From assembly GCF_000513295.1 (NCBI RefSeq), contig NC_023065.1, forward strand, positions 2,588,501 to 2,652,500: a DNA stretch of 64,000 nt, written 5' to 3'. Made by a program: the position numbers and the translations under genes. How positions within the stretch are numbered: the first letter of the stretch is position 1; every line of letters begins with the position of its first letter. The notes under the pieces are model-generated. The model was not told where the DNA came from and made no database searches. It saw nothing but the letters and a program-made list of their open reading frames with translations. Below are positions 45,962 through 63,106 of the stretch, in pieces. Origin of the DNA: Magnetospirillum gryphiswaldense MSR-1 v2 (GTDB taxonomy: Bacteria > Pseudomonadota > Alphaproteobacteria > Rhodospirillales > Magnetospirillaceae).

Positions 45962-46013
45962 ACGTGCCTTCAGCCACGGGGGTGTTAGCGACCCCACTGA
46001 GAATCATTCCTGC

Positions 46014-46106
46014 GGAGGGATGGGTGAGTGGCTGAAACCAACGGTTTGCTAAACCGTCCTAGGGGGTTAACCCTTAGCGCGGGTTCGAATCCCGCTCCCT
46101 CCGCCA
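46014..46106 (+). tRNA. tRNA-Ser (anticodon GCT)
   Basis: A 93-nt class II tRNA. The acceptor stem GGAGGGA (46014-46020) pairs with TCCCTCC (46096-46102); the discriminator is G and CCA is encoded at 46104-46106. The anticodon stem ACGGT/ACCGT encloses TTGCTAA with GCT at 46048-46050, reading AGC and AGT codons. A long variable arm and GGTTCGAATCC T-arm are present. It borders the start of an AT-richer accessory region. Confidence 0.97.
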
Positions 46107-46137
46107 CTACTTTCAAAGAATAGATTCTCTGACGCAT

Positions 46138-46165
46138 AGAGCCTTGGGCGAAAGCCCAAGGCTCT
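46138..46165. repeat. perfect 12-bp hairpin with GAAA tetraloop
   Basis: AGAGCCTTGGGC (46138-46149) pairs exactly with GCCCAAGGCTCT (46154-46165) around GAAA, a very stable GNRA-capped stem 32 bp after tRNA-Ser. There is no T run after it. It could protect or end the tRNA precursor, or be a remnant of an element end. Confidence 0.7.
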
Positions 46166-46183
46166 GCGCCGTTTGCGGCCAGT

Positions 46184-46397
46184 AGCTGTTGACCTTCTGG
46201 TCTTATGACGGCGCATTTTTAACCAATTTTATCTTCTCTCCCGCCCTGTTTCTCTGGAAGCTGTTGACTGCCGCCAAACGGTACGGGATTTAAAGTTGCA
46301 AGTAATTCAAGGCGTTGTGACGCCAAAAGCTGTTGACCTTTTCGCTGTTATTATTGGCGCGGGCTGGAGTCTGGGAGTGGAATGGACGGTCAACAGC
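46184..46397. repeat. four-copy repeat with core GCTGTTGAC
   Basis: AGCTGTTGACCTT at 46184-46196 and again at 46328-46340, AGCTGTTGAC at 46259-46268, and the reverse complement GGTCAACAGC at 46388-46397. Start-to-start spacing is 75, 69 and 60 bp. Confidence 0.75.
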
Positions 46398-46425
46398 CGT
46401 CCTGGCCCAGAAAGAGCCATCCGCA

Positions 46426-46815
46426 TCAGGCACGGCCAAGCACCTTCTCCACGCCAGTGTGCAGAATTTTCACGGAGACTGGCTTCTCGAGAAATAGATC
46501 GACTCCCGCAGCATAAGCCGTCTCGGCATTCTTCTCACCGACCATCCCAGTTACCAGAACGATAACCGTTTTCGGATCGATCCCGTCTACACCTGCTCGG
46601 ATTCGACGGGTGCATTCCAGTCCGTCCATTACATCCATCTGCCAGTCCATGAAGACGATGTCTGCCCCGCCAGCCTGGAGGGCGGAAATGGCCTCGGCAC
46701 CATTGGCAGCCGAGACGATCTCCGTAATGCCGAGAGCCCCTAAAACCATATGGATCAGTTCTCTCATCTGGGCATTATCCTCGACGATAACAGCGCGCCT
46801 GGGCTTAACCTTCAT
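46426..46815 (-). CDS. single-domain response regulator
   Basis: A 129-aa stand-alone receiver domain. The acidic pocket is Glu12-Asp13, the phosphorylation site Asp57 in VFMDWQMDVMDG, the Thr switch in VLVTGMVG, and the Lys in LEKPVS. There is no output domain, so it probably acts through protein contacts, like CheY or Spo0F. It is the last gene of an overlapping operon with the HD-GYP regulator and the hybrid kinase (11-bp overlap with the former). Confidence 0.9.
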   Translation of the reverse strand: MKVKPRRAVIVEDNAQMRELIHMVLGALGITEIVSAANGAEAISALQAGGADIVFMDWQMDVMDGLECTRRIRAGVDGIDPKTVIVLVTGMVGEKNAETAYAAGVDLFLEKPVSVKILHTGVEKVLGRA

Positions 46816-47863
46816 GAAACTGCTCCCTTAGTGCAACGATTTCGGGCAATATGCCGAGAAACATCTCTACGAGCCTTGGATCAAAGTGCTTGCCGGACTG
46901 ATCCTTTACTAGGGCAACCGCCTTTTCCAGCGGCCAGGCTTCCTTGTAGGGTCTTGACGAAGTCAGGGCGTCGAACACGTCGCAGATGGCGGCAATACGG
47001 GCCTCTATGGGGATATCCTCACCCTTGAGACCCTGAGGATAGCCGCTGCCATCCCATTTCTCGTGATGGCACAACGCCACATTGCGGGCCATCATGAGTA
47101 ATTCAGATTTGTGCTCGCCAATAATTTTGGCTCCTATCGAAACATGCGTCTCCATAATCTTTCGTTCGTCGGGGTCATGCCGACCGGGCTTGAGTAGAAT
47201 TTTGTCGGGGATACCGATCTTACCGACATCGTGCATCGGCGTTGCGTAAAGGATCAACTCCGCCCGCGCAGCCCCCATACCAGCAGCCAATGCCAGCATT
47301 TTGCACGAGTGACTCATGCGCATCACATGCATACCCGTTTCTTCGTCGCGGTACTCCCCAGCCAGACCGAGGCGTTCAATGATCTGTAGCTGGGCCACGC
47401 GCACATCTCTTGTGCGCTCGTGGACGATCTCCTCCAACTCGTCAGCACGTAGCCGCTGCCGCTTGAAGAAATGCCGTGTCTCTAGCATGTTGCGGATTCG
47501 CAGCATCACCTCCCACCGCTTGAACGGCTTGTTGACGAAGTCACGGGCCCCAGCCGTCAGCGCCTGGAACCTTGTCTCATCGTCGGTCTGGGCGGTCAGC
47601 ACCAGTACCGGGAGCCAGTCGCCCTCCTCCAAAGTGGCGGCGAGTTTCTCCAACACTTCGATGCCGCTCATATGCGGCATGCGAACATCAAGCAGGATGA
47701 TATCGAAGTCGTGGGACTGGTGGAGGCCGACCACCTCACGTGGATCACCGGTGGAAATCAGATTGGTGTAGCCTTCCCCAACCAGCATGGCTTGCAGAAC
47801 CGCCACATTGGCCGGTTCGTCATCGACGATCAGGATGCGGGAGGCTTGAAGGACATCATTCAT
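46805..47863 (-). CDS. response regulator with HD-GYP phosphodiesterase output (RpfG type)
   Basis: A 352-aa protein. The receiver domain (about 8-125) has DDEPAN and Asp59 in ILLDVRMPHMSG. A short helix leads to the HD-GYP domain (about 165-345) with the metal-binding HDVGKIGIPD and the motif HHEKWDGSGYPQGLKGEDIP, both intact, so it should degrade c-di-GMP. The ATG at 47863 starts at MNDVLQASRILIVDDEP; the longer frame upstream lies within the kinase gene. It overlaps the kinase by eight bases, so the kinase is its likely phosphodonor. Confidence 0.92.
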   Translation of the reverse strand: MNDVLQASRILIVDDEPANVAVLQAMLVGEGYTNLISTGDPREVVGLHQSHDFDIILLDVRMPHMSGIEVLEKLAATLEEGDWLPVLVLTAQTDDETRFQALTAGARDFVNKPFKRWEVMLRIRNMLETRHFFKRQRLRADELEEIVHERTRDVRVAQLQIIERLGLAGEYRDEETGMHVMRMSHSCKMLALAAGMGAARAELILYATPMHDVGKIGIPDKILLKPGRHDPDERKIMETHVSIGAKIIGEHKSELLMMARNVALCHHEKWDGSGYPQGLKGEDIPIEARIAAICDVFDALTSSRPYKEAWPLEKAVALVKDQSGKHFDPRLVEMFLGILPEIVALREQFHEG

Positions 47864-50000
47864 GAGTGACAAACTTGGCCTCCATCGCACGGGACAAGGT
47901 GCGGATAAGCTCGGATAGATTGACCGGCTTGGTGAGGTAATCGACAAAACCGCTGTTCAGCGCCCGCTCGGCGGTTGCGCTGGTGGCATCGGCGCTGAGG
48001 CCAACCACGGGGATATGGCGGATCAAGGCATCATGCTTGAGCCGGGCGACGGCCTCAAAGCCGTTTATGCCAGGGAGATTGATGTCGAGTAGAATCACAT
48101 CGGGCTGACTGCTACGTGCCAGGATCAGTCCATCTTCCGCATTGGTGGCGGTGATCAACCGCATGGGGGCGAGTTGCTCGAACAGGGCCTCCATCAGGCG
48201 CATATTGAACACATTATCCTCGATGTAGAGAACGAGACGATCCTCGAAGCAGTAATGGAGATTTGGCCCGCTATCGGCGGCGGGGGGGGGCTCTACCTTG
48301 TCGTCACACAACGGGAAGTCCAACCAGAAGCACGAGCCTTTATCAGCCACGCTGGAAAAGCCAATGCGCCCGCCCATGGCCTCAATGATGCTTTTGGTTA
48401 AGGCGAGGCCGATACCAGTGCCCTCAGTCGCGGTTGCATCGGCCCCAAGCCGATTGAAAGGCTTGAACATCTGATCCTGCATATTGTCGGGAATACCCTT
48501 GCCGGTATCGGCGATGATCAACCTGTGAAAGCCGTCCTCGATGGTTTCGCACGAGATGGTCACCGTGCCACCACGTCGGTTGTACTTGGCGGCATTGGAG
48601 AGCAGGTTGAGGATCAATTGCTTGGTACGCTGAGGATCGGCCAGGATCGTCGCATTACACTCAGCGGCCTCATTGACCGGTGTAACCTCGTATTTGGCAA
48701 AGATGGGGGTCGAAAGTGACACGCATTCATCGATCACCGACCCAAGATGGACTGCCGTCACCTCCTGCGTCATGGCCCCGGCCTCAACCTTAGCCAGATC
48801 GAGCACTTCGTTGATGAGGTCGAGCAGATGGGAGCCGCCAGCCAGGATGTGATCAACGTATCCTCGCTGCTTGTCGGTCAAGGGTGAGCCATAACCCGCG
48901 AGCAACACCTCTGCGAAACCAAGGACGGCGTTCAAGGGCGTCCGCAGCTCGTGACTCATGTTGGACAGGAAATCCGACTTAGCCCGGTTCGCGGCTTCGG
49001 CGGCAAGCTTGCTTTCTTGCAATTGGATTTCCGTCAACTTTCTGGCTGTAATATTTGCATGAGAAACGACAGCCCCGGGCTCTGGGCCTGTAATTGGGGA
49101 AATGTCCAGCCTGAACCAACGCTTTTCAGTTGGAGAGTGACATGGGTATTCCAGAGAAATTCCTAACGAAAGCCCATTTATAACGTCCAAAATTGCTTGA
49201 GGCGTCAGCTCAGTAGGGCATTCACTAGAATCCTCTCCTCCACACACCGATCCGTAAAAGTCACCAATGCAGAAGTTGTGCGGCCCATTATTAGCCACTG
49301 AGAAATTGCGCCATGCCTTGTTGACCATGGCAATGCGTCCTTGGCAATCCAGAACGGCAATATGCTGTGACATACAGTCTATGATGAGAGCGAGCCGATC
49401 CCGCGCCCTTTCCAGGTCAAAGGAATGGCTCTTTTCGGCAACCTCTGCCTTCTTCCGTTCCGTGATGTCCAAGGCTATGGTCAGGCATCGCCACCCACTT
49501 CCCCATTCATTTCCAAGCTTGACGCTTTCCAGAATTACAGGGAACGCAGGGCGCTGATCTGGGGAAAGCCATATCTCAGTCAATGATCGTCCGGTAATTT
49601 TTGTCCGCAGAAAATGGCTATCGAGTTCCTTGCGACTTTTTTTATCAACGAAGAGCATAAATGGCTTTCCGGCGACTCTAGCCTTGTCCTTATTGAGCAT
49701 TTTCATGCCGGAAATATTTGCATCAATCACAGCAAAGCCTTCGTTGATGACAAAATATCCAACAGGTGAGTAATCGAAGAGGTCGCGATTTTGCGCGCTA
49801 ATCCCTTCAATGCGTTCTTGAGCCTGTTGGAGCTCTTCGTTTTGGGATCGCAGCTCTTCCTGATGGACTTGTAGGTCGTGCAGAATCTCATCGTCGCCAC
49901 CTTTAGGCGATGACCCGCTTTGAGCAAGCAGAAGACGCAGCGCATCGATCTCCTTAATCAGCACCAAATTTTCTGTCTCGAGAACAGCTTTTGTTTTCAT
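47856..50000 (-). CDS. hybrid sensor histidine kinase (PAS-PAS-HK-receiver)
   Basis: A 714-aa soluble kinase. An N-terminal coiled coil (about 1-70) is followed by a PAS domain (about 75-195), then a second PAS of the EYPCHS type (about 210-330). The H-box FLSNMSHELRTPLNAVLGFAEV, the N-box LILNLLSNAAKYNRR and ADTGKGIPD make the kinase, and a C-terminal receiver (about 590-710) has VILLDINLPGING. No transmembrane helix is seen. The ATG at 50000 is chosen; a GTG four codons upstream is an alternative. It heads the operon with the HD-GYP regulator and the single receiver. Confidence 0.88.
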   Translation of the reverse strand: MKTKAVLETENLVLIKEIDALRLLLAQSGSSPKGGDDEILHDLQVHQEELRSQNEELQQAQERIEGISAQNRDLFDYSPVGYFVINEGFAVIDANISGMKMLNKDKARVAGKPFMLFVDKKSRKELDSHFLRTKITGRSLTEIWLSPDQRPAFPVILESVKLGNEWGSGWRCLTIALDITERKKAEVAEKSHSFDLERARDRLALIIDCMSQHIAVLDCQGRIAMVNKAWRNFSVANNGPHNFCIGDFYGSVCGGEDSSECPTELTPQAILDVINGLSLGISLEYPCHSPTEKRWFRLDISPITGPEPGAVVSHANITARKLTEIQLQESKLAAEAANRAKSDFLSNMSHELRTPLNAVLGFAEVLLAGYGSPLTDKQRGYVDHILAGGSHLLDLINEVLDLAKVEAGAMTQEVTAVHLGSVIDECVSLSTPIFAKYEVTPVNEAAECNATILADPQRTKQLILNLLSNAAKYNRRGGTVTISCETIEDGFHRLIIADTGKGIPDNMQDQMFKPFNRLGADATATEGTGIGLALTKSIIEAMGGRIGFSSVADKGSCFWLDFPLCDDKVEPPPAADSGPNLHYCFEDRLVLYIEDNVFNMRLMEALFEQLAPMRLITATNAEDGLILARSSQPDVILLDINLPGINGFEAVARLKHDALIRHIPVVGLSADATSATAERALNSGFVDYLTKPVNLSELIRTLSRAMEAKFVTHE

Positions 50001-50188
50001 ATTGCAGCTCACTACAAAACTCTTCCGATTTACAGGGCGGAAAATTTGCGATCCTTAGCAATCAGAAAATAGTCTCTGACAGTGGCAAGACAAGCCTCTT
50101 TGGACTAATTTGGCTACGGCAACCTTCCGCCCTCGCCCCCCCTTGCCATTCCATTGATCGTAAAACGAGGCTCGCGTAGGCTGCTCGG

Positions 50189-51346
50189 ATGATCAATCTC
50201 CGCCAGCGCCTTTCCTCAATAATCCGCGACATCGGTTTCGCCCGTGTCAGGCAATTGATCATTTCATCTGACCATCCTCCTTACCTGACGCGCCATCGAG
50301 CCGAGACCATTGCCTCACGTATTCGAATAGTTGCTGGCGCCTTCTCCCTTCTGACCCTGGCATGGATCGCCCTCGATAGACTTGTGTTGCCTTGGCCAAG
50401 CTGGGGCTGGCTGGCCGGGTTGAGGTTGGTCGCTTCGCTCGTGTTCATCGTACTCGCCGTCGCAGCCCATCGCGGAGTGACGCTGGCGCGGGCCTTGTCA
50501 TTGCTGGGGGTTCTTCTGGCGTTGCCGTTGGCTCTTTTTCTGGCGGCGCAGTTCTCGCTGTCGGGACTGCCGCTTGATGATGCGGCCGCAATCGATGCGC
50601 GCCTCTATGCCGCCCTGCCGATCATCATCGTCGCCGGTCTGGGGGTAATGCCCCTGACCGTTGCCGAGGGACTGTCATACGCACTGCCTGTGATCGTGGC
50701 GGCGACGCTCGGCCCGGTTCTGGCCAACGGGATCGACTGGGTTGGTCAGTTGTCCACCATGTGGGTGCTGGGCATGATCTTGGGAGTCTATCTTCTGGAG
50801 AGCATGATCCAGCTCCACTACATGATCAGCCTACTCCAGCGCGCCAGCCACGATCCGCTCACCAATGTCTTCACGCGCCACAGCGGCAACGAGATCGTCG
50901 ACACGCATTTCCGACTGTCGTGCCAGCGGGACGCTCCTTTCGCCGTGGCCTTCATCGATCTAGACAACTTCAAGAGCGTGAACGATGCCCATGGTCATGA
51001 GGCCGGGGACTGGGTGCTCAAGAACGCGGTCACCAACCTTACCCGGCTGCTGCGTAGCTCGGACGCCATCATCCGTTGGGGCGGCGAGGAGTTTGTGGTT
51101 ATCCTAGGTAGCGCCTCCGCCGAAGGCCAGCGAATCGCCATCCAGCGAATTGTAAACGAGTGGCTAGGCACCCGCCCGGACGGCGGCCCAGTTACGGCGA
51201 GCATCGGCGTCGCCGAACGCATCGCTGACAGCGCCCAAGACTGGCCTGCACTGATTGAGCTTGCCGACGCCCGCATGTATCAAGCCAAGATGAGCGGAAA
51301 GGCCCGTGGTATCATGGGTGCGGACGAGGTGATCATTCCAAACTAA
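50189..51346 (+). CDS. membrane diguanylate cyclase
   Basis: A 385-aa protein with five or six transmembrane helices between about 45 and 215, then a short helix and a GGDEF domain (about 225-375). The active site RWGGEEFVVIL is an intact GGEEF; FIDLDNFKSVND carries the metal-binding Asp. An RxxD product-inhibition site is not evident before the GGEEF. The membrane sensor is not a family I can name. Transcribed divergently from the hybrid kinase operon, 188 bp away. Confidence 0.85.
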   Translation: MINLRQRLSSIIRDIGFARVRQLIISSDHPPYLTRHRAETIASRIRIVAGAFSLLTLAWIALDRLVLPWPSWGWLAGLRLVASLVFIVLAVAAHRGVTLARALSLLGVLLALPLALFLAAQFSLSGLPLDDAAAIDARLYAALPIIIVAGLGVMPLTVAEGLSYALPVIVAATLGPVLANGIDWVGQLSTMWVLGMILGVYLLESMIQLHYMISLLQRASHDPLTNVFTRHSGNEIVDTHFRLSCQRDAPFAVAFIDLDNFKSVNDAHGHEAGDWVLKNAVTNLTRLLRSSDAIIRWGGEEFVVILGSASAEGQRIAIQRIVNEWLGTRPDGGPVTASIGVAERIADSAQDWPALIELADARMYQAKMSGKARGIMGADEVIIPN

Positions 51347-51586
51347 ATGCTACATGGCCCGCAGTCTTCGACAGAACATTGACCGTCAGCGATGGGTCAG
51401 TTCCAGCGGATTGACTCTGGTGCTGCCTGACCGCTCTACCCTTAGATAGATATCCGTCGTCCCACTTGTGCCAAATTCCGTCGATGGCGACAGTCTTCGT
51501 CGATCAGATCGACCCAGCAATTACCATTGGTCTAATTGTAGCGCCGATGCCAGACTGGACCCGATAATCTGACGGGGTTTCTGGCG

Positions 51587-52495
51587 ATGGGCGTCTTCTC
51601 AGGATGGTTCGATCCGTCGAGTTTTGCTCCTCATGGCTTCTGCTTGTCGTGGGCGCCTGGGTTGTTGGAGCTCCATGCCGTTTCAGACGCAGTCACGGGC
51701 GTTTGCTACATGGCAGTCGGCTTTTTAATATTCCAATTCGGCAGACGCCGCCCTGACATGGGGTCTGCCGCCCTATTTAATGCTCTGTTCGTGGTCTTTT
51801 TTCTGTGTGGACTGACCCACATCGTCGACATTGTCGTGCTGTGGCGTCCCGTCTACGTCGAGCAGGGGCTTCTCAAGGCGGTTACAGCGGCGGCGTCACT
51901 ACCGGCCCTGATCATTCTGATCAGGTTAGTGCCCAAGGCGATCGGCCTGCCCTCGTCGGCCCAGATGGCTGAGGTTAGCCGCGAGGCCAATTTTGATCCG
52001 CTGACAGACCTGCCCAACCGCCGCCACCTCATTCACAAACTTGAACGGATAATTGAGAAAGCCTCGGAGGAGCGGCGGCAGCTGGCAGTGTTGTTCGTCG
52101 ATTTGGACCACTTCAAACCCGTCAACGACACTCTTGGGCACCAAATCGGCGATCGGCTCCTGGTTGAGGTCGCCGTCCGCCTGAAATCTTGTGTTAGAGG
52201 TTCGGATGTTGTCGCCCGGCTTGGCGGCGACGAGTTTCTGGTGGTGCTTGAAGCAGTCTCATCCCCGGAGTCCACCGCCATGGTCGCCGACAACATCATT
52301 ACCGCTATCGGCCTGCCCTACACGATCGAGGATCAACAAATCGAAATTGGCGCCAGCATCGGCGTGGCGGTATTTCCAGGCGACGGCACCGATCCCGACA
52401 CCTTGATCCAACAGGCGGACAAGGCAATGTACGCCGCAAAGGCTAATGGACGAGGCGGGTTCAGCAACGCGACGGCTGCGGGCGCCAGCCTCTGA
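51587..52495 (+). CDS. diguanylate cyclase with ethylene-receptor-like copper-site membrane domain
   Basis: A 302-aa protein. The N-terminal 120 residues resemble the ETR1-type ethylene-binding domain: three helices, Asp34 in LHAVSDAVTGVCYM, and the CGxTH motif as Cys74-Gly-Leu-Thr-His78 in FFLCGLTHIVDIVVLWRP, the Cu(I) ligands of plant ETR1. The domain ends with LVPKAIGLPS, usual for bacterial members. A GGDEF domain (about 130-295) follows directly with an intact RLGGDEFLVVL. No GAF domain or kinase is present. The ATG at 51587 gives the normal leader before the first helix. Ligand specificity is inferred. Confidence 0.82.
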   Translation: MGVFSGWFDPSSFAPHGFCLSWAPGLLELHAVSDAVTGVCYMAVGFLIFQFGRRRPDMGSAALFNALFVVFFLCGLTHIVDIVVLWRPVYVEQGLLKAVTAAASLPALIILIRLVPKAIGLPSSAQMAEVSREANFDPLTDLPNRRHLIHKLERIIEKASEERRQLAVLFVDLDHFKPVNDTLGHQIGDRLLVEVAVRLKSCVRGSDVVARLGGDEFLVVLEAVSSPESTAMVADNIITAIGLPYTIEDQQIEIGASIGVAVFPGDGTDPDTLIQQADKAMYAAKANGRGGFSNATAAGASL

Positions 52496-52633
52496 GTATT
52501 CCTGTCCCGCCCATTGACAGAATTGGCTCAGCCTCGGCAGGTTGGCCCCGGTGCTGAGGCTGACCGCTTGCCCCCATATACCCGCCATTCGGCGAGAACG
52601 GTTTCTGCGCTCCCGTTGTGCCAAAACCAGCCA

Positions 52634-55408
52634 TTAAGACCAGCAACGTCTCGCATATTCCTCAAACTCCTCTATTGGCAATGGGCGACTAAAGAAATAG
52701 CCCTGACAGGAATGGCAGCCAGATGTTTCCAAGAAATTTCTCTGCGCTTCTGTTTCAACGCCCTCGGCTATGACGCTCAAGCCAAGGCTTTGGGCCAGAT
52801 TGACAATGGTCTTGGCGATGGTCGCATCACTTGGGTCTGTTAGCACATCGCGGACAAACGATTGGTCAATTTTTAACTGATCCAGCGGAAGCTGCTTCAG
52901 GTATGACAACGATGAATAGCCTGTACCAAAGTCATCAAGAGAAAATCCAATACCATCAGCCTTCAGGGCAAACATTTTTTTGATAATGTCTTGCACATTT
53001 TCAGCCAGCATACTTTCAGTCAATTCAAGCTTTAGTCGCTCAGGATTTGCGCCAGTTACTCTAATAACTTCTTGAATATGATCAACAAATTCAGGCTGAT
53101 GAAACTGCTGTACGCTGACATTAACGGCAACAGTAAGATCGGCCAATTCAGGGCGTGTCGCCCATTCCGCCAATTGCTTACAGGCGGCCTCTAAAACCCA
53201 ATTCCCTAATTGTAGGATCAAGCCCGTTTCTTCAGCCAAAGGAATGAAATCTGAAGGGGGCACCAATCCTCGTACGGGATGCCGCCACCGCACCAGCGCT
53301 TCAACGCCAGTCATTCGCCCATTGGAAAAAATCTGAGGTTGATAGTGCAGCAGGAATTGCTTTTTAATTAAGCCCTGACGAAGGTCGGCTTCGATCTTCG
53401 CCCTCTTGATAACGGCTTCTTCCATTTTTGGGTCAAAAAAGTGAATTGATGCCCCGCCCTCAGCTTTAGCCTTATACATGGCAAGGTCTGACTGCTTCAA
53501 AAGATCATCGGCCACCACATGCCCAAAAAACAATGTGGCACCGATACTCGGTGTACATACATAGTGCTGATTGTTGAGGGAGTATGGCTGGCTCAGGGCT
53601 TCTATAATTTTTAAACCTATGGCTTCAACCTGATTGGCAGCTTCAGATTCTGTTCTGGCCAGATCAACCAACAGCACCAAAAACTCATCTCCACCAAGCC
53701 GGGCCACTGTATCGTCTTCACGAACACTTGCTACAAGCCTAGGCGCTATGTCTCTCAGTAATTGGTCGCCGATCTCATGGCCAAGCGTTTCGTTAAGTGC
53801 CTTGAAGTTATCGAGGTCAATGAAAAGCAGGGCACAATGTTTGCCATCGCGATAACTGGCCGTCATTGCCAACTTCATCCGGTCCATCAGCAATGTGCGA
53901 TTTGGTAGGCCGGTCAAGTGGTCAAAGAACGATAATTCAGCAATCTTCCCTTCTGCTCTCCGACGCTCACTGATATCGCGCAATGCACTCGCAATCATTA
54001 CTCCTTGATCTGTATCAACCCGGCTTAAATTTATTTCTACTTCACATTCTGATCCATCCTTTCGTAAAGCCTTAATTGTGCGGCCTCCCAACATAAGCCT
54101 TCTATCTGGAGCCTCTATATAAGCAGACCGATGTTCCGAGTGGGCGCTGTTGACACTCTTGGGAACCAGAGCCTCAATCGATTGGCCGATTAAGTCCTCC
54201 GCCATATAGCCCAACACCTCTTCAACGCGGCTATTGGCCATGGTAATTGCCCCCTGCGCATCGCTAATTAGCAGTGCATCTGGACTTGCGTCAAAGATGG
54301 TTCTCAAGCGTGCTTCGCTTATTTGAATGTCAGAAAAAGCCTGCTCTCTATCAGAAATGGCTTGCCTTAGATTAGTGATATTGGTGTGCGTAATAACGAC
54401 ACCTCTTATCTTTCTGTGCCACAGAGGGGCTACCGTCATCGCGAACCAACGCTGCTCCGTATTTGAGTGGCAGGGATATTCCATACTGAATATCGGCAAG
54501 CTGCCACTCAAAACGGCCATGATGCCGTTATGCGCTTCTAAAGCACCCTCCTTTTCTGAGCCGTCCCCCGCCCGGCAGATACCCAAATAGCTGGCCCCAA
54601 TTCCAGCATTAGGCAGAGGCTGCTCGCCCTCGCAAGTATTTTCCAATGCAAATTTTCGCCAAGCTTCATTAACAGATACAATGATGCCATGACCATCAAG
54701 CACAGCAATTTCTGATTGCACAGAATTTAAAATGACTGTTTTGAACTCTTCACTACTCTGTAAGTCCGCAAAGACCAGATCTCTATCTACCTGCATTTCT
54801 TCAAGTTCAGAAGTTCTCTTAAGGAGAATTGTTTCCGTATTAATGGCTAAGTCTAACGCCTCTACAATAGATCTATTATAGGCCTGGATGGCATAAAGCA
54901 TTAAACCAACGCACATCGCAACTGCAAGGGCCACCGTAAGCCAAGTTTGGGGCGCAATTAGATAGGCTGCGACATCAAACGATGGAGCCGTGCCAAAGGC
55001 ATACATGCTTATGCCAGCGCCAAATAGTGACAAGACAACAAATGACAGCAATATCAAGCCCGTTCGCATTCCTATCATAATTGCCGCAATGCAGACTCCT
55101 GTATTAAAAAAGGTATATGCCGGAGATAGAATGCCAAATTGCAGAACACTTCCAAGTCCAACCATTATTAGTACCAATGACATTGAAAGCGCTTTTGTCA
55201 TTGCTGATAATTTATTTCTAAAATAATATAGTGCACACAAGTACGTAGACAAAATAATCTGCAGCATCATTACGGGCAAAAATCCAATTATAGTAAACCT
55301 CGAAACGCTCGCTGCAGTGGTAATTGGCGCAAAAATCGCCAATATCATTAGGATGTTGTCTGTCAAACGGCTGCGTATCGCTTCCAATTGGCTATTTACA
55401 TGGATCAT
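52634..55408 (-). CDS. membrane PAS-PAS-GGDEF-EAL protein
   Basis: A 924-aa protein. About five transmembrane helices fill 15-190; a coiled coil, a PAS of the EYPCHS type (about 225-345) and a second PAS (about 365-485) follow. The GGDEF domain has an intact RLGGDEFLVLL, and the EAL domain has GVEALVRWRHP, LKLELTESM and FSLDDFGTGYSSLSYL, so both activities could be real. The coding DNA is clearly more AT-rich than the flanks. The ATG at 55408 is preferred; ATG at 55453 or TTG at 55462 would lengthen it by 15-18 residues with no better ribosome site. Confidence 0.88.
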   Translation of the reverse strand: MIHVNSQLEAIRSRLTDNILMILAIFAPITTAASVSRFTIIGFLPVMMLQIILSTYLCALYYFRNKLSAMTKALSMSLVLIMVGLGSVLQFGILSPAYTFFNTGVCIAAIMIGMRTGLILLSFVVLSLFGAGISMYAFGTAPSFDVAAYLIAPQTWLTVALAVAMCVGLMLYAIQAYNRSIVEALDLAINTETILLKRTSELEEMQVDRDLVFADLQSSEEFKTVILNSVQSEIAVLDGHGIIVSVNEAWRKFALENTCEGEQPLPNAGIGASYLGICRAGDGSEKEGALEAHNGIMAVLSGSLPIFSMEYPCHSNTEQRWFAMTVAPLWHRKIRGVVITHTNITNLRQAISDREQAFSDIQISEARLRTIFDASPDALLISDAQGAITMANSRVEEVLGYMAEDLIGQSIEALVPKSVNSAHSEHRSAYIEAPDRRLMLGGRTIKALRKDGSECEVEINLSRVDTDQGVMIASALRDISERRRAEGKIAELSFFDHLTGLPNRTLLMDRMKLAMTASYRDGKHCALLFIDLDNFKALNETLGHEIGDQLLRDIAPRLVASVREDDTVARLGGDEFLVLLVDLARTESEAANQVEAIGLKIIEALSQPYSLNNQHYVCTPSIGATLFFGHVVADDLLKQSDLAMYKAKAEGGASIHFFDPKMEEAVIKRAKIEADLRQGLIKKQFLLHYQPQIFSNGRMTGVEALVRWRHPVRGLVPPSDFIPLAEETGLILQLGNWVLEAACKQLAEWATRPELADLTVAVNVSVQQFHQPEFVDHIQEVIRVTGANPERLKLELTESMLAENVQDIIKKMFALKADGIGFSLDDFGTGYSSLSYLKQLPLDQLKIDQSFVRDVLTDPSDATIAKTIVNLAQSLGLSVIAEGVETEAQRNFLETSGCHSCQGYFFSRPLPIEEFEEYARRCWS

Positions 55409-55465
55409 GGCATCGCCTGCTTGAGATGTGGTGCGCGATTTGTCGACACGCATGTCCAACAAAAA

Positions 55466-55474
55466 TTATCCACA
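55466..55474. promoter_or_regulatory. perfect DnaA-box sequence
   Basis: TTATCCACA is the canonical DnaA box. It lies upstream of the PAS-GGDEF-EAL gene, next to a short hairpin ATAGCC/GGCTAT at 55479-55494. A single box has limited meaning. Confidence 0.3.
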
Positions 55475-55659
55475 AATGATAGCCGACTGGCTATTTCATT
55501 GGAATGGCTCTTGTGGGGCCGCAGTGGGTCACAAAGGGCCGGTTGGGTGGGGCGCGGTGGGTGGCCGCTGTGCCCCCGGCAGCCGCCAGTCATCGGCAAC
55601 GTCTGCCATGCCGACTGTGGATCATGTCCGGCACTTCGAGACCGACGCCAGGAAGAAGC

Positions 55660-56077: not shown

Positions 56078-56323
56078 TCAGTTTTCGGCCTTCGGCACAG
56101 ACCCCAGACGCTGCAGAAATTCAGGCTCGTCGTAATCGCCCATTTCAGGGTCGGCGGTCTGACGGACGACATCCACGCCGGCAACGCTGCCACCCTCCAT
56201 CATGCGGCTGGCGCGTTGCAGGGCCTGTGGCTCGGTCTTGTAGGAAATGGGGGGCTGAGGTTTCAGTCCACCCCTTTTGCCGAGGATGTACGGCTGGCAG
56301 ATGAACAAGGTTTCGAGGGCCAT
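56078..56323 (-). CDS. conserved hypothetical protein (81 aa), prophage-associated
   Basis: An 81-aa soluble protein with ETLFICQPYILGKRGGLKPQ at the start and VRQTADPEMGDYDEPEFLQR later. It seems to be a known type of small protein in alphaproteobacterial prophages, with no assigned function. AGGA lies about eight bases before the ATG at 56323. It is 94 bp downstream of the 134-aa gene on the same strand. Confidence 0.6.
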   Translation of the reverse strand: MALETLFICQPYILGKRGGLKPQPPISYKTEPQALQRASRMMEGGSVAGVDVVRQTADPEMGDYDEPEFLQRLGSVPKAEN

Positions 56324-56417
56324 GGCGGTATTCCTGCGGCAAGGGCGACTACCGCAGGGTGTTTCTATTTCGTTCTTTTGTCAATATGCATGGTCGCGCC
56401 GGGATTCGCGCCCCCGG

Positions 56418-56822
56418 TCACCGCGCCGTGATCCCGTACCTTTCCCGCTGCCGGTCCCATTCCACCGGCATGTCGTCCATCAGGTTGGCAAGCTGGATTG
56501 TCCGCGGCTGGCGTCCATCGAGGATGGTTTCGACGATGTCGGGGGCCAGCAAGGTCAGGCGGTAGATGCGTGTCAGGTAAGACGGATTGATCTTCTCGGC
56601 TTCGGACAATTCGTTCAGGGATGCCACCTTCCCGGATTCAAGCATGCGCTTCCAGCGGTGGGCACGGGCCAGCGCCTTCAGCAGCGTGTCGTCGGGGGTG
56701 GGTTTGGCGCGCACCGGCACGCCGTCGCCCTCAGGCACGATCACCAGCTTGCGGCCGCCATATCGCCGCAGAGTCAGCGGCACACGGATGGTCAGGGTGT
56801 CGATCCGGATGTCGGCGGTCAT
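56418..56822 (-). CDS. recombinase-associated ParB-like HTH protein
   Basis: A 134-aa basic protein. The N-terminal half has a beta pattern (MTADIRIDTLTIRVPLTLRR); the C-terminal half SLNELSEAEKINPSYLTRIYR is a helix-turn-helix like that of ParB/KorB, followed by LANLMDDMPVEWDRQRERYG. Proteins of this type lie beside large serine recombinases in Rhodospirillaceae. No recombinase is in the window. A partial second copy is at 55660-55764. It is divergent from the terminase, 30 bp away. Confidence 0.68.
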   Translation of the reverse strand: MTADIRIDTLTIRVPLTLRRYGGRKLVIVPEGDGVPVRAKPTPDDTLLKALARAHRWKRMLESGKVASLNELSEAEKINPSYLTRIYRLTLLAPDIVETILDGRQPRTIQLANLMDDMPVEWDRQRERYGITAR

Positions 56823-56852
56823 GCCGCGCTCCTGTCGCCAGTCTGGGCGGTG

Positions 56853-58781
56853 ATGTCGGCGATGACGCTGGCCGTCCTGCTCCAGGCGTGGCGCGATGGA
56901 TTGCGTCCCGATCCGGCCCTGACCGTCTCGGAATGGGCCGATCAGCACCGCATGCTGTCGAGCCGGGCCTCGGCCGAACCGGGCCGGTACCGAACCGCTC
57001 GCACGCCCTATATGCGCGACATCATGGACGCGCTGTCGCCTACCAATCCGGTACAGCGGGTGGTGTTCATGAAGGCGGCCCAGGTGGGGGCGACCGAAGC
57101 CGGGTGCTGCTTCATCGGTTTCGTCATCCACCATGCGCCGGGGCCAATGCTGTGCGTCCAGCCGACAGTGGAGATGGCGAAACGGGCGTCTCGCCAGCGC
57201 ATCGACCCGCTGATCGAGGAAAGCCCGGCTATCCGCGATCGGGTCAAACCGGCCCGGTCGCGTGACGCGGGCAATACCATGCTGTCGAAGGATTTTCCCG
57301 GCGGCACCCTGGTGCTGACCGGGGCCAACAGCGCGGTGGGCCTGCGCTCCATGCCGGCCCGTTACCTGTTCCTCGACGAGGTCGACGCCTATCCGGCTTC
57401 CGCCGACGACGAAGGCGATCCGGTCGGTCTGGCCGAGGCCCGCTCGCTGACCTTCGCCCATCGCCGAAAAGTGTTCCTGGCCTCGACCCCGACCATCCGG
57501 GGCATGTCGCGCATCGAGCGGGAATACGAGGCCAGCGACCAACGCCGCTTCTTCGTGCCGTGCCCCCATTGCGGGACCATGCAGTGGCTGAAATTCGAGC
57601 GGCTACGCTGGGACAAGGGCCGCCCCGAGACGGTGCGCTATCACTGCGAATCCTGTGACCAGGAGATCGCCGAGCACCACAAAGGCGCCATGCTGGCAGC
57701 AGGCGTTTGGCGGGCGACGGCCACGGGCACTGATCCCGGTACCATCGGCTTTCACATCTCGGCGCTGTATTCGCCGCCGGGCTGGCAGTCGTGGCGCGAC
57801 ATCGTCCGCCTGTGGGAAGCGGCACAAGGAAATGACGATGCGCTGCGGGTGTTCAAGAACACCGTGCTCGGCGAAACCTGGACCGAATCCGGCGAGGCCC
57901 CCGACTGGCAGCGGCTCTACGATCGTCGCGAAACCTGGGCCAATGGCAGTGTGCCGGAAGGCGCCCTGTTCCTCACCGCCGGGGCCGATGTCCAGAAGGA
58001 CCGCGTCGAGATCGATGTCTGGGCCTGGGGCCGCAACCTGGAAAGCTGGCTGGTAGACCACATCGTCATCGACGGCGGTCCCGAGAAGGCCGAAACCTGG
58101 ACTGCGTTGGAGCAGGTGCTGGCGAAGACCTGGCAACATGCCAACGGTGCCGCCCTGAAGATCGCCCGTCTCGCCATCGACTCCGGCTACGAGGCTTCGG
58201 CGGTCTACACCTGGGGCCGCAAAATGGGCGTCGCCAGCGTGTCGCCGGTCAAGGGCGTCGAGGGCTTCAACCGCTCCAGCCCGGTCTCCGGCCCGACTTA
58301 TGTGGACGCCACCGAGGGCGGCAAGAAGATTCGCCGTGGTGCCCGCCTCTGGACGGTGGCGGTGTCCACCTTCAAGTCGGAGACCTACCGGTACTTGCGC
58401 CTGGAGCGGCCCACCGACGAGGAACTGGCCGAGGGAATCCGTTTCCCGGCCGGAACGGTGCATCTGCCATCGTGGGCAGACTCGGAGTGGTGCAAGCAGT
58501 TCGTCGCCGAGCAACTGGTGACGGTCAAAAACCGGCGCGGCTTCACCAAGCTGGAATGGCAGAAGCTGCGCGAGCGCAACGAGGCGCTGGATTGTCGGGT
58601 CTATGCCCGCGCCGCCGCCTGGATCGTCGGTGCCGATCGCTGGTCAGAGGCTAAATGGCGGGATCTCGAGAAGCAGGTGGCGGCCACGGACTTTGCCTCT
58701 GCCAGTGACCCGGAGGCCGGGCAGATCCGCCGGATCGCTCGCCGACCCCGGCGGATCATCAAATTCAGTGGACTGAACTGA
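56853..58781 (+). CDS. phage terminase large subunit (GpA family)
   Basis: A 642-aa DNA-packaging motor. Walker-A-like FMKAAQVGATEAG, Walker B RYLFLDEVDAYP, a CPHCG...CESC zinc site (about residues 232-270) and the nuclease segment LTAGADVQKDRVEIDVWAWG are all visible, the typical order of lambda GpA. Length is normal. The ATG at 56853 is chosen; a second in-frame ATG at 56862 is possible. No small terminase subunit gene precedes it. Confidence 0.92.
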   Translation: MSAMTLAVLLQAWRDGLRPDPALTVSEWADQHRMLSSRASAEPGRYRTARTPYMRDIMDALSPTNPVQRVVFMKAAQVGATEAGCCFIGFVIHHAPGPMLCVQPTVEMAKRASRQRIDPLIEESPAIRDRVKPARSRDAGNTMLSKDFPGGTLVLTGANSAVGLRSMPARYLFLDEVDAYPASADDEGDPVGLAEARSLTFAHRRKVFLASTPTIRGMSRIEREYEASDQRRFFVPCPHCGTMQWLKFERLRWDKGRPETVRYHCESCDQEIAEHHKGAMLAAGVWRATATGTDPGTIGFHISALYSPPGWQSWRDIVRLWEAAQGNDDALRVFKNTVLGETWTESGEAPDWQRLYDRRETWANGSVPEGALFLTAGADVQKDRVEIDVWAWGRNLESWLVDHIVIDGGPEKAETWTALEQVLAKTWQHANGAALKIARLAIDSGYEASAVYTWGRKMGVASVSPVKGVEGFNRSSPVSGPTYVDATEGGKKIRRGARLWTVAVSTFKSETYRYLRLERPTDEELAEGIRFPAGTVHLPSWADSEWCKQFVAEQLVTVKNRRGFTKLEWQKLRERNEALDCRVYARAAAWIVGADRWSEAKWRDLEKQVAATDFASASDPEAGQIRRIARRPRRIIKFSGLN

Positions 58782-58783
58782 TC

Positions 58784-58993
58784 ATGACTCTCGACGAGAT
58801 GAAGGCTGAGCGCGAGCGGGTGCTGGCGCGGCGTAACTCACTGGTGGCTCGCGTCACCGTCGGCGACCGCACCGTCCAATACGACCTGACCCAGGCCAAC
58901 CATGTTCTGGCCGATCTCGACCGCCGTATCGCCATGCTGGAGGGCAGGAAGCCCCGTCGGCGCATCCTCGCCGTCGCCACCAAGGGGCTGTGA
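58784..58993 (+). CDS. phage head-tail joining protein (gpW-like)
   Basis: A 69-aa protein in the gpW position between terminase and portal. An N-terminal helix (MTLDEMKAERERVLARRNSL), a short beta hairpin VTVGDRTVQYDL and a second helix VLADLDRRIAMLEG give the gpW layout. Two bases separate it from the terminase stop. Confidence 0.75.
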   Translation: MTLDEMKAERERVLARRNSLVARVTVGDRTVQYDLTQANHVLADLDRRIAMLEGRKPRRRILAVATKGL

Positions 58994-58995
58994 CC

Positions 58996-60426
58996 ATGCT
59001 GGGGAGTTTCCGCCGTCGCCTCGGCGCCCTGATCGGCGGCTTCGAGGCCGCCCAGGGCAGCCGCCGGCTCAAGGGCTTCCAGCCCAGCCGCGCCCACGTC
59101 AACACCCTGATCGCTGCTGCCGGTTCCGACATCACGGCGCGAGCCCGCTATTTGGTGCGCAACAACGGCTATGCCCTCAATGCCGCTGAGAGCTGGACCG
59201 GAAACGCCGTCGGTACCGGCATCAAGCCGTCGTCCCTGATCGCTGACAAGGATCTGAAGACCCTGGTGCAGCAGCTTTGGCTGGCCTGGACCGACGAATC
59301 CGATGCCGAGGAGCTGACCGATTTCTTCGGCCAGCAGCGCCGGGCCGCCCGCGAGGTGTTTATCGCCGGGGAAGTGTTCTTCCGCCTACGCCCGCGTCGC
59401 CCGGAAGACGGCCTGACGGTGCCGTTGCAGCTTCAGATGCTGCCGTCCGAGATGCTGCCCCTGACCCGAACCGAGGTTCTTCCCAACGGCAACGTGATCC
59501 GTCAGGGCATCGAGTTTGATCGCATCGGGCGGCGGGCGGCATATTGGTTCCTGCGCCGCCATCCCGGCGATCTCACCGATCCCGGCATGGTCGGCGAAAT
59601 GGTGCGTGTTCCGGCCGCCGAAATCATCCATGTCATCGACCCGGTGGAATCCGGCCAGCTTCGGGGCGTGTCCCGGCTGGCCCCGGCCATCGTCAAGCTG
59701 TTCCTGCTCGACCAGTACGATGACGCAGAACTTGAGCGCAAGAAGATCGCGGCCATGTACGCGATGTTCGTCATCTCGCCGGCACCAACCGATATTATCG
59801 ATGTGACCCCAGCCGACGATGGTTCCGGCGACCGCATCGTCGAGGTCCAGCCCGGCCAGGTGGTGCCCTTGGAGCCGGGCGAGCAGATCCAGACCTCGGC
59901 CCCCGCCGATGTGGGCGGATCGTATGAGCCATTCGAGTATCGGACGCTGCTGCAGATCTCGGCCGCCACCGGCATCCCTTACGCCTATTTGTCCAACGAC
60001 ATGCTGAAGGCCAACTACTCCAACTCGCGCATGGCGCTGCTGGAATTCCGCCGCCGGGTCGAGGCATGGCAGCACTCGGTGATGGTCCACCAGATGTGCA
60101 GGAAAGTGTGGCAGCGCTGGCTGGATGTGGCGGTGCTGTCCGGGGCGCTCGACATTCCCGGCTACGAGCGCAAACGCGCCAGCTTCATCGCCTGCTCCTG
60201 GCTGCCGCCGAAATGGGACTGGGTCGATCCGCTGAAGGACGCCAAGGCCGAGATCGAGCAGATCGGGGCGGGTCTGAAAAGCAGGACGCAAGCACTGGCC
60301 GAGCGTGGCTACGACGCCGAACAGGTCGATGCCGAGATTGCCACCGACCGGGAACGGGAACAGCGGTTGGGGCTGACCTTCGGTTCCGATCCGCCACCGC
60401 TCTTGTTGCCCCCACCGACATCGTAA
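58996..60426 (+). CDS. phage portal protein (lambda GpB family)
   Basis: A 476-aa portal. RARYLVRNNGYALNAAESWTGNAVGTGI, GEVFFRLR, IIHVIDPVESGQLRGVSRLAPAI and LSNDMLKANYSNSRMALLEFRR are family blocks (landmarks). Twelve copies form the DNA gate of the capsid. The ATG at 58996 has AAGGGG at good spacing; a GTG at 58990 overlapping the gpW stop is possible. The Pro-rich tail is short. Confidence 0.9.
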   Translation: MLGSFRRRLGALIGGFEAAQGSRRLKGFQPSRAHVNTLIAAAGSDITARARYLVRNNGYALNAAESWTGNAVGTGIKPSSLIADKDLKTLVQQLWLAWTDESDAEELTDFFGQQRRAAREVFIAGEVFFRLRPRRPEDGLTVPLQLQMLPSEMLPLTRTEVLPNGNVIRQGIEFDRIGRRAAYWFLRRHPGDLTDPGMVGEMVRVPAAEIIHVIDPVESGQLRGVSRLAPAIVKLFLLDQYDDAELERKKIAAMYAMFVISPAPTDIIDVTPADDGSGDRIVEVQPGQVVPLEPGEQIQTSAPADVGGSYEPFEYRTLLQISAATGIPYAYLSNDMLKANYSNSRMALLEFRRRVEAWQHSVMVHQMCRKVWQRWLDVAVLSGALDIPGYERKRASFIACSWLPPKWDWVDPLKDAKAEIEQIGAGLKSRTQALAERGYDAEQVDAEIATDREREQRLGLTFGSDPPPLLLPPPTS

Positions 60427-60434
60427 GGACGGAC

Positions 60435-61667
60435 ATGCACGATTTGCCCCATCTCGCGGCTCGTCTGTACGGGACGCCGCTGCTGGTCGCCCGCAGTAAG
60501 CTGGATGTGATCCTGGGTGCTCTCGGCCCCCGGCTGGCTGGGCAGTCCATCTCCTTCGACGGTGATACGGCTCCATCCGCCGATGTGGCGGTGACGCCCG
60601 ACGGCATCGCCATCGTGCCGGTGGTGGGAACCCTGGTGGCCCGCTCCGGCTATCTCGGCGCCGCCAGCGGCTTGACCGGTTATGGCGACATCGCCGATGC
60701 CATCGAGGCGGCAGCCACCGATCCCGGCGTTCGCGCCATTCTGCTGGACGTGGACTCCTCCGGTGGCGAGGTGGGCGGGTTGTTCGATCTGGTCGACCAC
60801 ATCCAGGCCATCCGCAGCCAGTGCGGCAAGCCGATCTGGGCGGTGGCGGACGAGGCGGCGCTATCGGCGGCCTATGCCATCGCCTGCACCGCCGACCGCC
60901 TCTACGTCACCCAGACCGGCGAGGTCGGCTCCATCGGCGTGGTAGCTGTCCACCGCGACGAATCGGGGGCAGATGCCCAGGCGGGGCTGGCCTGGAGTTT
61001 CGTCCATGCCGGGGCCTGCAAGGTGGATGGCAATCCCCACCAGCCGCTGTCCGACTCTGCCCGTGCCGGTCTTCAGGCCGATGTGGATGCCCTCTACGGG
61101 AAGTTCGTCGCCCTGGTGGCCAAATGCCGCAAGCAGCCGCCCGAGGCGATCCGCTCCACCGAGGCCACCGTCTATCGCGGCGATCAGGCAGTGGCCGCCG
61201 GGCTGGCCGACAAGGTCGGCACGCTCCGCGTCGCCCTCGCCGATCTCGGCGCCACCCTGGCGCGTTCCTCTATCCGTTCCCCCGTCCTGTCCAAACCCAA
61301 GGAGACCACCATGTCCGAGCAAGCGGGGGACATCCCCGTCATCGAAACCGAACGCTCCACTCCGGGAGCCATTGTTCCGGTGCCCGGCGCAGTAACCGCC
61401 CAGGTGGAACAGCGCCTGCGCGCCGAATATTCCGAAATCAGCGCCATCGCCGCCCAGGCAGCCCGCCTGGGCGTGACCATCGATCCCGCCGAGGCCATGG
61501 CCAAGGGCATCCGCCCCGAGGCGCTGCGTCGCACCGTGCTGGAGCAACTGGCCGAGCGCTCCGAGGCCACCGACGTGGTGGCCGCCGCTCCGGCGGGAGC
61601 CGCCCCCAAGTCCGAAACCGAAAGCCCCATCGTCCGGCGTGCCCGCGAAGCCGCCGCCCGGAAATAA
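60435..61667 (+). CDS. phage S49 family protease with C-terminal scaffold region (GpC-like)
   Basis: A 410-aa protein of the SppA/GpC type. The catalytic dyad is Ser144 in ADEAALSAAYAIAC and Lys196 in HAGACKVDGNPH; ILLDVDSSGGEVGG and GEVGSIGVVAVH are strand landmarks. After about residue 290 the protein becomes Ala/Glu-rich and helical, like the lambda Nu3 scaffold. A strong internal ribosome site produces a likely nested scaffold from 61311. Confidence 0.9.
   Translation: MHDLPHLAARLYGTPLLVARSKLDVILGALGPRLAGQSISFDGDTAPSADVAVTPDGIAIVPVVGTLVARSGYLGAASGLTGYGDIADAIEAAATDPGVRAILLDVDSSGGEVGGLFDLVDHIQAIRSQCGKPIWAVADEAALSAAYAIACTADRLYVTQTGEVGSIGVVAVHRDESGADAQAGLAWSFVHAGACKVDGNPHQPLSDSARAGLQADVDALYGKFVALVAKCRKQPPEAIRSTEATVYRGDQAVAAGLADKVGTLRVALADLGATLARSSIRSPVLSKPKETTMSEQAGDIPVIETERSTPGAIVPVPGAVTAQVEQRLRAEYSEISAIAAQAARLGVTIDPAEAMAKGIRPEALRRTVLEQLAERSEATDVVAAAPAGAAPKSETESPIVRRAREAAARK
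61311..61667 (+). CDS. nested scaffolding protein (Nu3-like), internal start
   Basis: Inside the S49 gene, CCCAAGGAGACCACC precedes an in-frame ATG at 61311, a textbook ribosome site at ideal spacing. The product would be the 118-aa C-terminal part starting MSEQAGDIPVIETERS, rich in Ala, Glu and Arg. In lambda, Nu3 scaffold is made in the same way from within gene C. Confidence 0.65.
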   Translation: MSEQAGDIPVIETERSTPGAIVPVPGAVTAQVEQRLRAEYSEISAIAAQAARLGVTIDPAEAMAKGIRPEALRRTVLEQLAERSEATDVVAAAPAGAAPKSETESPIVRRAREAAARK

Positions 61668-61679
61668 GGACACGCTGCC

Positions 61680-62069
61680 ATGCCTGTGCTGACCGCTTCG
61701 CCCACCCTGGGCGATCTGCTGAAGTTCGAACTGAACGCCAGCTACACCCGCGAGACCGTCACCTTGAAGGCGGGCACGTCCTATCGCCTCGGCTCCGTGC
61801 TGGGCCGCATCACCGCCAGCGGCGAATACCGCCTGTCGCCCGCCGCCGAGGTGGTCGGTGACCAAGGGGCGGAAACCGCCATCGCCGTGCTGTTGGAAGC
61901 GGTGGACGCCACCGATGGCGTGGCCACCGGCCTGATCGCCGCCCGTGGCCCGGTCATCCTGGCCGATGGCGCTCTGATTTTCGAAGCCTCGGTCGACCAG
62001 CCCGCCGAACGGGCCGCCAAAATTGTCCAGCTTGCCACTGTGGGTCTGGTTGCCCGCGCCACCGTCTGA
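61680..62069 (+). CDS. phage head decoration protein (GpD family)
   Basis: A 129-aa capsid-stabilising protein. SYTRETVTLKAGTSYRLGSVLGRITASGEY and the later AIAVLLEAVDA match the GpD fold pattern; it lies between the protease and the major capsid gene, as in lambda. AGGA precedes the ATG. Confidence 0.85.
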   Translation: MPVLTASPTLGDLLKFELNASYTRETVTLKAGTSYRLGSVLGRITASGEYRLSPAAEVVGDQGAETAIAVLLEAVDATDGVATGLIAARGPVILADGALIFEASVDQPAERAAKIVQLATVGLVARATV

Positions 62070-62083
62070 TCGGAGCCTTTCCC

Positions 62084-63106
62084 ATGAACGCCATCATCAA
62101 CCCCTTCGACGCGGGCGGCTATTCGCTCGCCGAGATGACCCAGGCCATCAACATCCTGCCCAACCTCTACACCCGGCTCGGCCAGATGGGGCTGTTCCGC
62201 TTCGAGGGCGTGACCCAGCGCAGCGTCATCATCGAGCAGGCCGAGGGTGTCCTCAACCTGCTGCCGACCGTGCCCCTGGGCGGCCCCGCCACCGTCGCCA
62301 ACCGCGATGCCCGGAGCATGCGCTCGTTCACGGTGCCGTGGATTCCCCACGATGATTCCATCACGCCCCAGGACGTCCAGGGCGTGCGCGGCTTCGGTGT
62401 CGCCGATGCCGCCGATCCTCTGGCCACGGTGATGGAGCGCAAGCTGACTCGCATGCGCTCGAAACATGCCCAGACCCGCGAGTTCATGGAGGTCAATGCG
62501 CTCCGCGGCATCATCCGCGACGGCTCCGGGTCCACCCTCTACGACTATTTCAGTGAATTCGCCCTGAGCCGTCAGCAGGTGGATTTCACCCTGGGCACCG
62601 CCACCACCAATGTCCAGGCCAAGATCCGCGACGTGTTGCGCAAGGTGGAGACCGAACTGAAGGGCGAGACCATGACCAGCGTTCTGGCCCTGGTCAGCCC
62701 GGAATTCTTCGACAAGCTGATCGGCCACGCCAAGGTCGAGCAGGCCTACCAGTATTATTCCTCGACCGGCGCCCAGCCGCTCAGGGAGGACGTCCGCCGC
62801 CGCTTCCCCTTCGCCGGCATGGTGTTCGAGGAATACAGCGCCACCGTCACTCTTTCCACCGGTGAGACGGAAACCCTGATCCCGGCCGGCGAGGGCATCG
62901 CCTTCCCGCTCGGCACCATGGACACCTTCGTCACCTATGGCGCCCCGGCCAACCTGATCGAGACGGTCAACACCCTGGGCGTGCCCATGTATGCCCGCCA
63001 GTTGGCCCGCCAGGACGGCAGCGCCATCGACGTCAAGACCGAGGCGTCCATCCTGCCGGTCAACAAGCGCCCGCGTCTGGCGGTGCGGTTGTTCTCGGGT
63101 AACTGA
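62084..63106 (+). CDS. phage major capsid protein (GpE family)
   Basis: A 340-aa HK97-fold capsid protein. PFDAGGYSLAEMTQAINILPN at the start, VPLGGPATVANRDARSMRSF, VPWIPHDDSITPQDVQGVRGF and NKRPRLAVRLFSGN at the end are characteristic of the lambda E family (landmarks). Length matches the family. GGAGC precedes the ATG. Confidence 0.92.
   Translation: MNAIINPFDAGGYSLAEMTQAINILPNLYTRLGQMGLFRFEGVTQRSVIIEQAEGVLNLLPTVPLGGPATVANRDARSMRSFTVPWIPHDDSITPQDVQGVRGFGVADAADPLATVMERKLTRMRSKHAQTREFMEVNALRGIIRDGSGSTLYDYFSEFALSRQQVDFTLGTATTNVQAKIRDVLRKVETELKGETMTSVLALVSPEFFDKLIGHAKVEQAYQYYSSTGAQPLREDVRRRFPFAGMVFEEYSATVTLSTGETETLIPAGEGIAFPLGTMDTFVTYGAPANLIETVNTLGVPMYARQLARQDGSAIDVKTEASILPVNKRPRLAVRLFSGN

Follow-up and report, generated by a model that had tools for sequence, protein, structure and literature searches.

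A predicted membrane diguanylate cyclase of Magnetospirillum gryphiswaldense carrying an ethylene-receptor-type domain with an apparently changed ligand pocket

Domain organization in relation to known ethylene receptors

Ethylene binding by the receptor AtETR1 requires a set of positions that includes D25, I35, P36, I62, C65, and H69 (PMC6586836, PMC11819568), with K91 predicted to bond with D25 (PMC11819568), and the purified AtETR1 domain has a very high affinity for Cu(I) (PMC6586836). Among bacterial receptors, AzoEtr1 of Azospirillum brasilense is described as binding ethylene on the basis of radioligand data (PMC11819568), while the single N-terminal Cys of cyanobacterial receptors may serve for dimers (PMC6682694). 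In bacteria, the Cys/His pair is usually taken as sufficient for calling an ETR1-type domain an ethylene receptor. Here we analyzed a 64,000-nucleotide window of the M. gryphiswaldense MSR-1 v2 genome (NC_023065.1, positions 2,588,501 to 2,652,500), in which a gene on the plus strand (51587-52495) encodes a 302-residue protein combining the only ethylene-binding-type domain (EBD; ETR1_N) of this genome with a GGDEF domain. Among the papers listed in literature searches, which covered mostly articles available without subscription, none dealt with an EBD-GGDEF protein.

The open reading frame, coordinates, strand, and residue numbers given in an earlier note were all correct on re-check. No better opposite-strand ORF overlaps the gene, as stops break the minus-strand reading there, and no sigma-70-like promoter was found in 51300-52700, where 0.9 would be expected by chance. 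The three-helix ETR1_N membrane domain, delimited by PF25487 and hydropathy, spans residues 26-119 (51662-51943, plus strand, as are all features of the gene), and its score of 79.5 bits (E 2.3e-22, Pfam cut-off 27) places the protein in the family. The GGDEF diguanylate cyclase domain covers residues 134-289 (51986-52453) and matches PF00990 with 174.2 bits (E 2.3e-51). Both scores are far beyond chance, and at E ≤ 1 there is no further Pfam family. According to hydropathy, the three membrane segments are centered in residues 38-43, 65-82, and 102-116. An N-terminal PHGFCLSW motif typical of bacterial EBDs (residues 15-22, 51629-51652) precedes them, and the bacterial end LVPKAIGLPS, already pointed out in the earlier note, occupies residues 114-123. 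Residues 120-133, a linker of some 14 residues, lead to the GGDEF domain, with its core signature DLDHFKPVNDTLGHQIGD (residues 172-189) intact, followed by the inhibitory RxxD site RGSD (204-207, 52196-52207) and the active-site motif (213-217, 52223-52237). The presence of a GGDEF domain with an intact active-site motif marks the protein as a predicted diguanylate cyclase. Pfam and motifs agree with the earlier description of ETR1_N and an intact GGDEF domain joined directly, with neither GAF nor histidine kinase. Elsewhere, the PHGxCxxW motif before helix 1 is conserved in 53 of the 63 EBDs found with PF25487 (L001-L023, L054-L082, L141-L155).

The three-helix EBD, the Cys and His Cu(I) ligands, and the Asp are shared with receptors of the AtETR1/SynEtr1 type. 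However, the EBD-GGDEF protein has no GAF, PAS, kinase, or receiver domain, so that the histidine kinase output which marks two-component ethylene receptors of the AtETR1, SynEtr1, and AzoEtr1 type is absent, and it carries the changes I35V, P36G, and I62F in AtETR1 numbering. For AzoEtr1, we used the sequence from an A. brasilense plasmid (NZ_CP059450.1; L135, 2462-4039), recognized by its 525 residues and the overlapping 135-residue response regulator as described in PMC11819568. Its ETR1_N domain is 40% identical to that of the EBD-GGDEF protein over 123 residues, with D, Y, C, H, and K in common. Unlike the EBD-GGDEF protein, with four of the seven ethylene-site residues and a GGDEF output, AzoEtr1 has all seven, an EBD-PAS-histidine kinase architecture, and an adjoining response regulator.

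The copper site and the pocket around it

The ruler for residue numbering was the AtETR1 sequence, in which Y32 is the seventh position required for ethylene binding. In the alignment, the kept residues are Asp34 (AtETR1 D25, 51686-51688), Tyr41 (Y32, 51707-51709), the Cu(I) ligands Cys74 (C65, 51806-51808) and His78 (H69, 51818-51820), and the helix-3 coupling residue Lys97 (K91, 51875-51877). The ETR1-type pattern of D34 and C74-Gly-Leu-Thr-H78 highlighted in the earlier note is thus present and aligns with D25, C65, and H69. What that note missed is that the other three ethylene-site positions are changed, namely Val44-Gly45 (I35-P36, 51716-51721) and Phe71 (I62, 51797-51799), leaving four of the seven residues (D34, Y41, C74, and H78). 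The Cys and His ligands together with the helix-1 Asp are those of a predicted Cu(I) site. Under ideal-helix arithmetic (100 degrees per residue), D34, Y41, and G45 fall within 40 degrees of one face, with V44 up to 100 degrees off them, and F71, C74, and H78 fall within 60 degrees. These angles, which are arithmetic rather than a structural model, fit one pocket; no solved EBD structure was found in the PDB. Since four of the seven residues are retained and the Gly/Phe pocket is common to its clade, the EBD-GGDEF protein looks like one in which the Cu(I) site is kept while the gas pocket is remodeled.

The comparison set consisted of 138 distinct EBD ORF segments, an uneven sample. It combines PF25487 searches in relatives, the order, the family, and a phylum sample with a class sample queried with the EBD of the EBD-GGDEF protein (at most 30 loci each), one scan of genome contigs for patterns close to the EBD-GGDEF protein, and AzoEtr1. 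All seven ethylene-site residues are found in 90 of these EBDs, and D, C, and H are retained in 124, while the G36/F62 pair occurs in only five. Phe62 is present in 11 EBDs, and Pro36 is absent from 10 of them versus 18 of the 127 without Phe62 (Fisher p 2.5e-7, with kinship ignored). On the tree, Phe62 requires at least four changes and the loss of Pro36 at least 11, with four independent pairs of the two on all branches. A link between F62 and the loss of P36 is not proven, because just one such independent pair lies on supported branches, and position 36 alone is not strict, since Pro36 is also missing from those 18 EBDs. Changes at other site positions were observed in a few members of the set: two from the same family (L014 and L015) have Asp25 replaced by Glu, Lys91 by Asn, and a Phe62, L077 and L078 have His69 replaced by Arg, and L049 has Arg for Cys65 and Asn for His69.

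A quick tree of 137 EBDs was built from few columns, with positions 35, 36, and 62 omitted and SH-aLRT as its only support measure; there, the EBD of the EBD-GGDEF protein forms a clade (support 99) with four others (L016-L019), from two genomes of the same genus and two of the same family. Gly36 and Phe62, as well as D, Y, C, H, and K, are found in all five members of the clade, although the EBD-GGDEF protein is at most 46% identical to the other four. In alignment A2, the metal-site residues are among the 45 invariant columns of 115. Close homologues lacking Cys/His, which the earlier note had named as a refutation, do not occur among these four nearest relatives, all of which retain D, Y, C, and H together with the Lys of helix 3. 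They differ from the EBD-GGDEF protein in their output, L016, L018, and L019 being PAS-histidine kinases, while L017 ends at a contig end before any kinase. From this we infer that the pocket had probably already changed when, in a kinase receptor of the G36/F62 branch, the kinase output was exchanged for GGDEF.

Possible ligands and mode of action

In our preferred but tentative reading, the EBD-GGDEF protein is a membrane-bound diguanylate cyclase under the control of a Cu(I)-site domain with a changed or weakened ligand preference. C74 and H78 of the three-helix ETR1_N fold would ligate Cu(I), and D34 and K97 would lie close to it. Occupation of this site by a small ligand would shift helix 3, and the shift would be passed through the short linker to a GGDEF dimer, changing c-di-GMP synthesis in one step. 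The Cu(I) binding, the ligand, the gating via helix 3, the direction of the switch, and the dimer are all parts that we infer. The pocket around the copper site has been rebuilt, with G45 in place of Pro and F71 in place of Ile, as in the kinase receptors of the same family, which makes ethylene an improbable ligand, at least with the affinity seen in plants. The ligand would instead be another small molecule able to ligate Cu(I), or ethylene bound only weakly. Against a changed ligand, positions beyond the seven could compensate, and effects known in AtETR1 from Ala substitutions or single alleles may not be transferable to the bacterial pocket.

The earlier note had proposed a one-step switch from ethylene to c-di-GMP; ethylene at the Cu(I) site would then inhibit or activate the GGDEF domain. 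The part of this proposal that holds is the D/C/H set of copper-site residues with a directly attached GGDEF domain, and membership of ETR1_N and the conservation of D, Y, C, and H agree with it. We nevertheless regard it as unlikely for this protein: P36G, I62F, and I35V all fall at positions required in AtETR1, I62F being the ethylene-insensitive allele etr1-4, and the G36/F62 pair is as rare among EBDs as noted above. Ethylene is reported to alter biofilm formation in Azospirillum and Synechocystis, which speaks for an ethylene response, both via kinases (PMC11819568).

We give somewhat less credence to a relic sensor, whose membrane domain merely anchors and dimerizes a constitutive, product-inhibited cyclase. 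The drifted pocket residues would be explained in this way, the weakest ETR1_N scores of the family fall in this clade (67.5, 62.8, 70.3, 69.5, and 82.3 bits), and the intact RxxD site would permit plain product inhibition. What argues against a relic is the conservation of D, Y, C, H, and K throughout the clade despite its low sequence identity. Finally, a response to copper itself or to its redox state (e.g., O2 or peroxide acting at Cu(I)), instead of to a gas ligand, would account for copper ligands being retained where the gas pocket is not, but it is improbable, as the very tight Cu(I) binding of the purified AtETR1 domain, while attesting to a copper site, suits a fixed cofactor better, and the neighbors within the window are signaling genes.

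Returning to a Cu(I)-gated cyclase with a changed ligand, the whole G36/F62 branch of ETR1_N might have kept its Cu(I) site and swapped its ligand, in which case the receptor fold would be a general Cu(I)-based sensor of small molecules; we consider this broader idea possible but doubtful. With copper residues kept and an ethylene pocket naturally changed, the EBD-GGDEF protein makes ligands besides ethylene directly testable. Its presumed output, c-di-GMP, is easy to measure, and genetics is at hand in M. gryphiswaldense. Among nonmagnetic clones of this species, some are reported to have Tn5 inserted within or close to genes for diguanylate cyclases, a finding that was afterwards attributed to instability or to polar effects (PMC7676999).

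Other outputs, occurrence of the domain, and genomic setting

Of the 138 EBD ORFs, 118 have a kinase output, whether or not PAS or receiver domains are present, whereas a direct GGDEF domain occurs in two and GGDEF-EAL in three. No output was seen in the other 15: the locus end truncates eight of them (PAS is visible in three of these eight), and four stop no more than 60 residues past the domain. These classes come from home-made probes; Pfam then confirmed a kinase in most of 31 initially untyped ORFs (HWE_HK in 23), as well as the architectures of L083, L084, L111, L112, L115, and L149. With a kinase in 118 of the 138 ORFs, the EBD is a known input module, and GGDEF was gained at least four times on the EBD tree. 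The three GGDEF-EAL proteins (L111 and L112 from Methylotenera, and L115 from an Acetobacteraceae MAG) resemble the EBD-GGDEF protein in wiring an EBD to c-di-GMP domains, but they have a PAS domain in between, an added EAL phosphodiesterase domain, and P36 and I62 in place. At another locus (L028, 787-2082, minus strand), an in-frame stop separates an EBD ORF of 195 residues from a same-frame kinase ORF of 235 residues.

The EBD-GGDEF layout described in the earlier note is real but not unique. A second direct fusion, of 329 residues, is encoded at L149 (1411-2400) in a genome of the same order but another family (G924), and no other occurs among the 138. Its two domains are arranged in the same way, and the two proteins are 39% identical over 285 residues; it differs in a nearly canonical pocket (DYIPVCH) and an ETR1_N score of 121 bits. 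As its EBD groups elsewhere on the tree, at a place without support, it is probably a separate fusion. If ethylene is to be coupled to c-di-GMP by such a fusion, the L149 protein is the stronger candidate and, as the complementary case, offers a natural test of a one-step switch.

EBD-containing genomes, as detected with PF25487, amount to 3 of 13 in the genus, 17 of 55 in the family, and 34 of 317 in the order. The phylum sample has EBDs in 29 of its 398 genomes, and the class sample, queried with the EBD of the EBD-GGDEF protein, in 26 of its 385. The distribution is patchy. A phage origin of the domain was not retained, with no match among 50,697 phage records, and neither was a plasmid origin, the 18 matching plasmid records being 29.6-41.3% identical and none of them near.

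The EBD-GGDEF gene and its signaling neighbors lie in a low-GC stretch (46001-55500) with 53.1% GC, compared to 64.5% in 1-46000, where the lowest 9.5-kb segment has 62.9%. Besides an HD-GYP-type regulator (read from sequence) and a hybrid kinase, the neighbors are a second diguanylate cyclase upstream (50189-51346, plus strand) and a convergent PAS-GGDEF-EAL protein of 942 residues (52634-55462, minus strand). ETR1_N is absent from the latter, and a search of the family at E ≤ 1e-10 found no counterpart to its first ~165 residues in any of the 54 other genomes. A PAS-like stretch is common to the hybrid kinase and the PAS-GGDEF-EAL protein (regions 49041-49445 and 54325-55462), at 38% over residues 224-365 of the second protein, and 23 of the 55 genomes of the family contain it. 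The second cyclase is 90.6-94.8% identical at the protein level to those of three relatives, located at unrelated places, as if it moved as a single gene. Its DNA (50118-51400) is 88-92% identical to the copies in the three relatives, with unrelated surroundings. By blastn, no other DNA around it is shared in L177 and L179, and L178 has one 75-base match at 73%. A common operon or system with the second cyclase is unsupported, with no EBD ORF match in the 9-11 kb around it in these three relatives. The low-GC region looks like a patchwork of acquired signaling genes. It is adjoined downstream by prophage head genes (56277-63106) for a terminase, portal, head protease, and major head protein, for which no link to the EBD was found.

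Elsewhere in the same genome, a cation-diffusion protein matches the solved domain of the magnetosome protein MamM of M. gryphiswaldense (3w5x) in 104 of 104 residues. Its gene adjoins a MamK-like gene (L137, 78-2484, for the two together), and the pair marks the host as magnetotactic.
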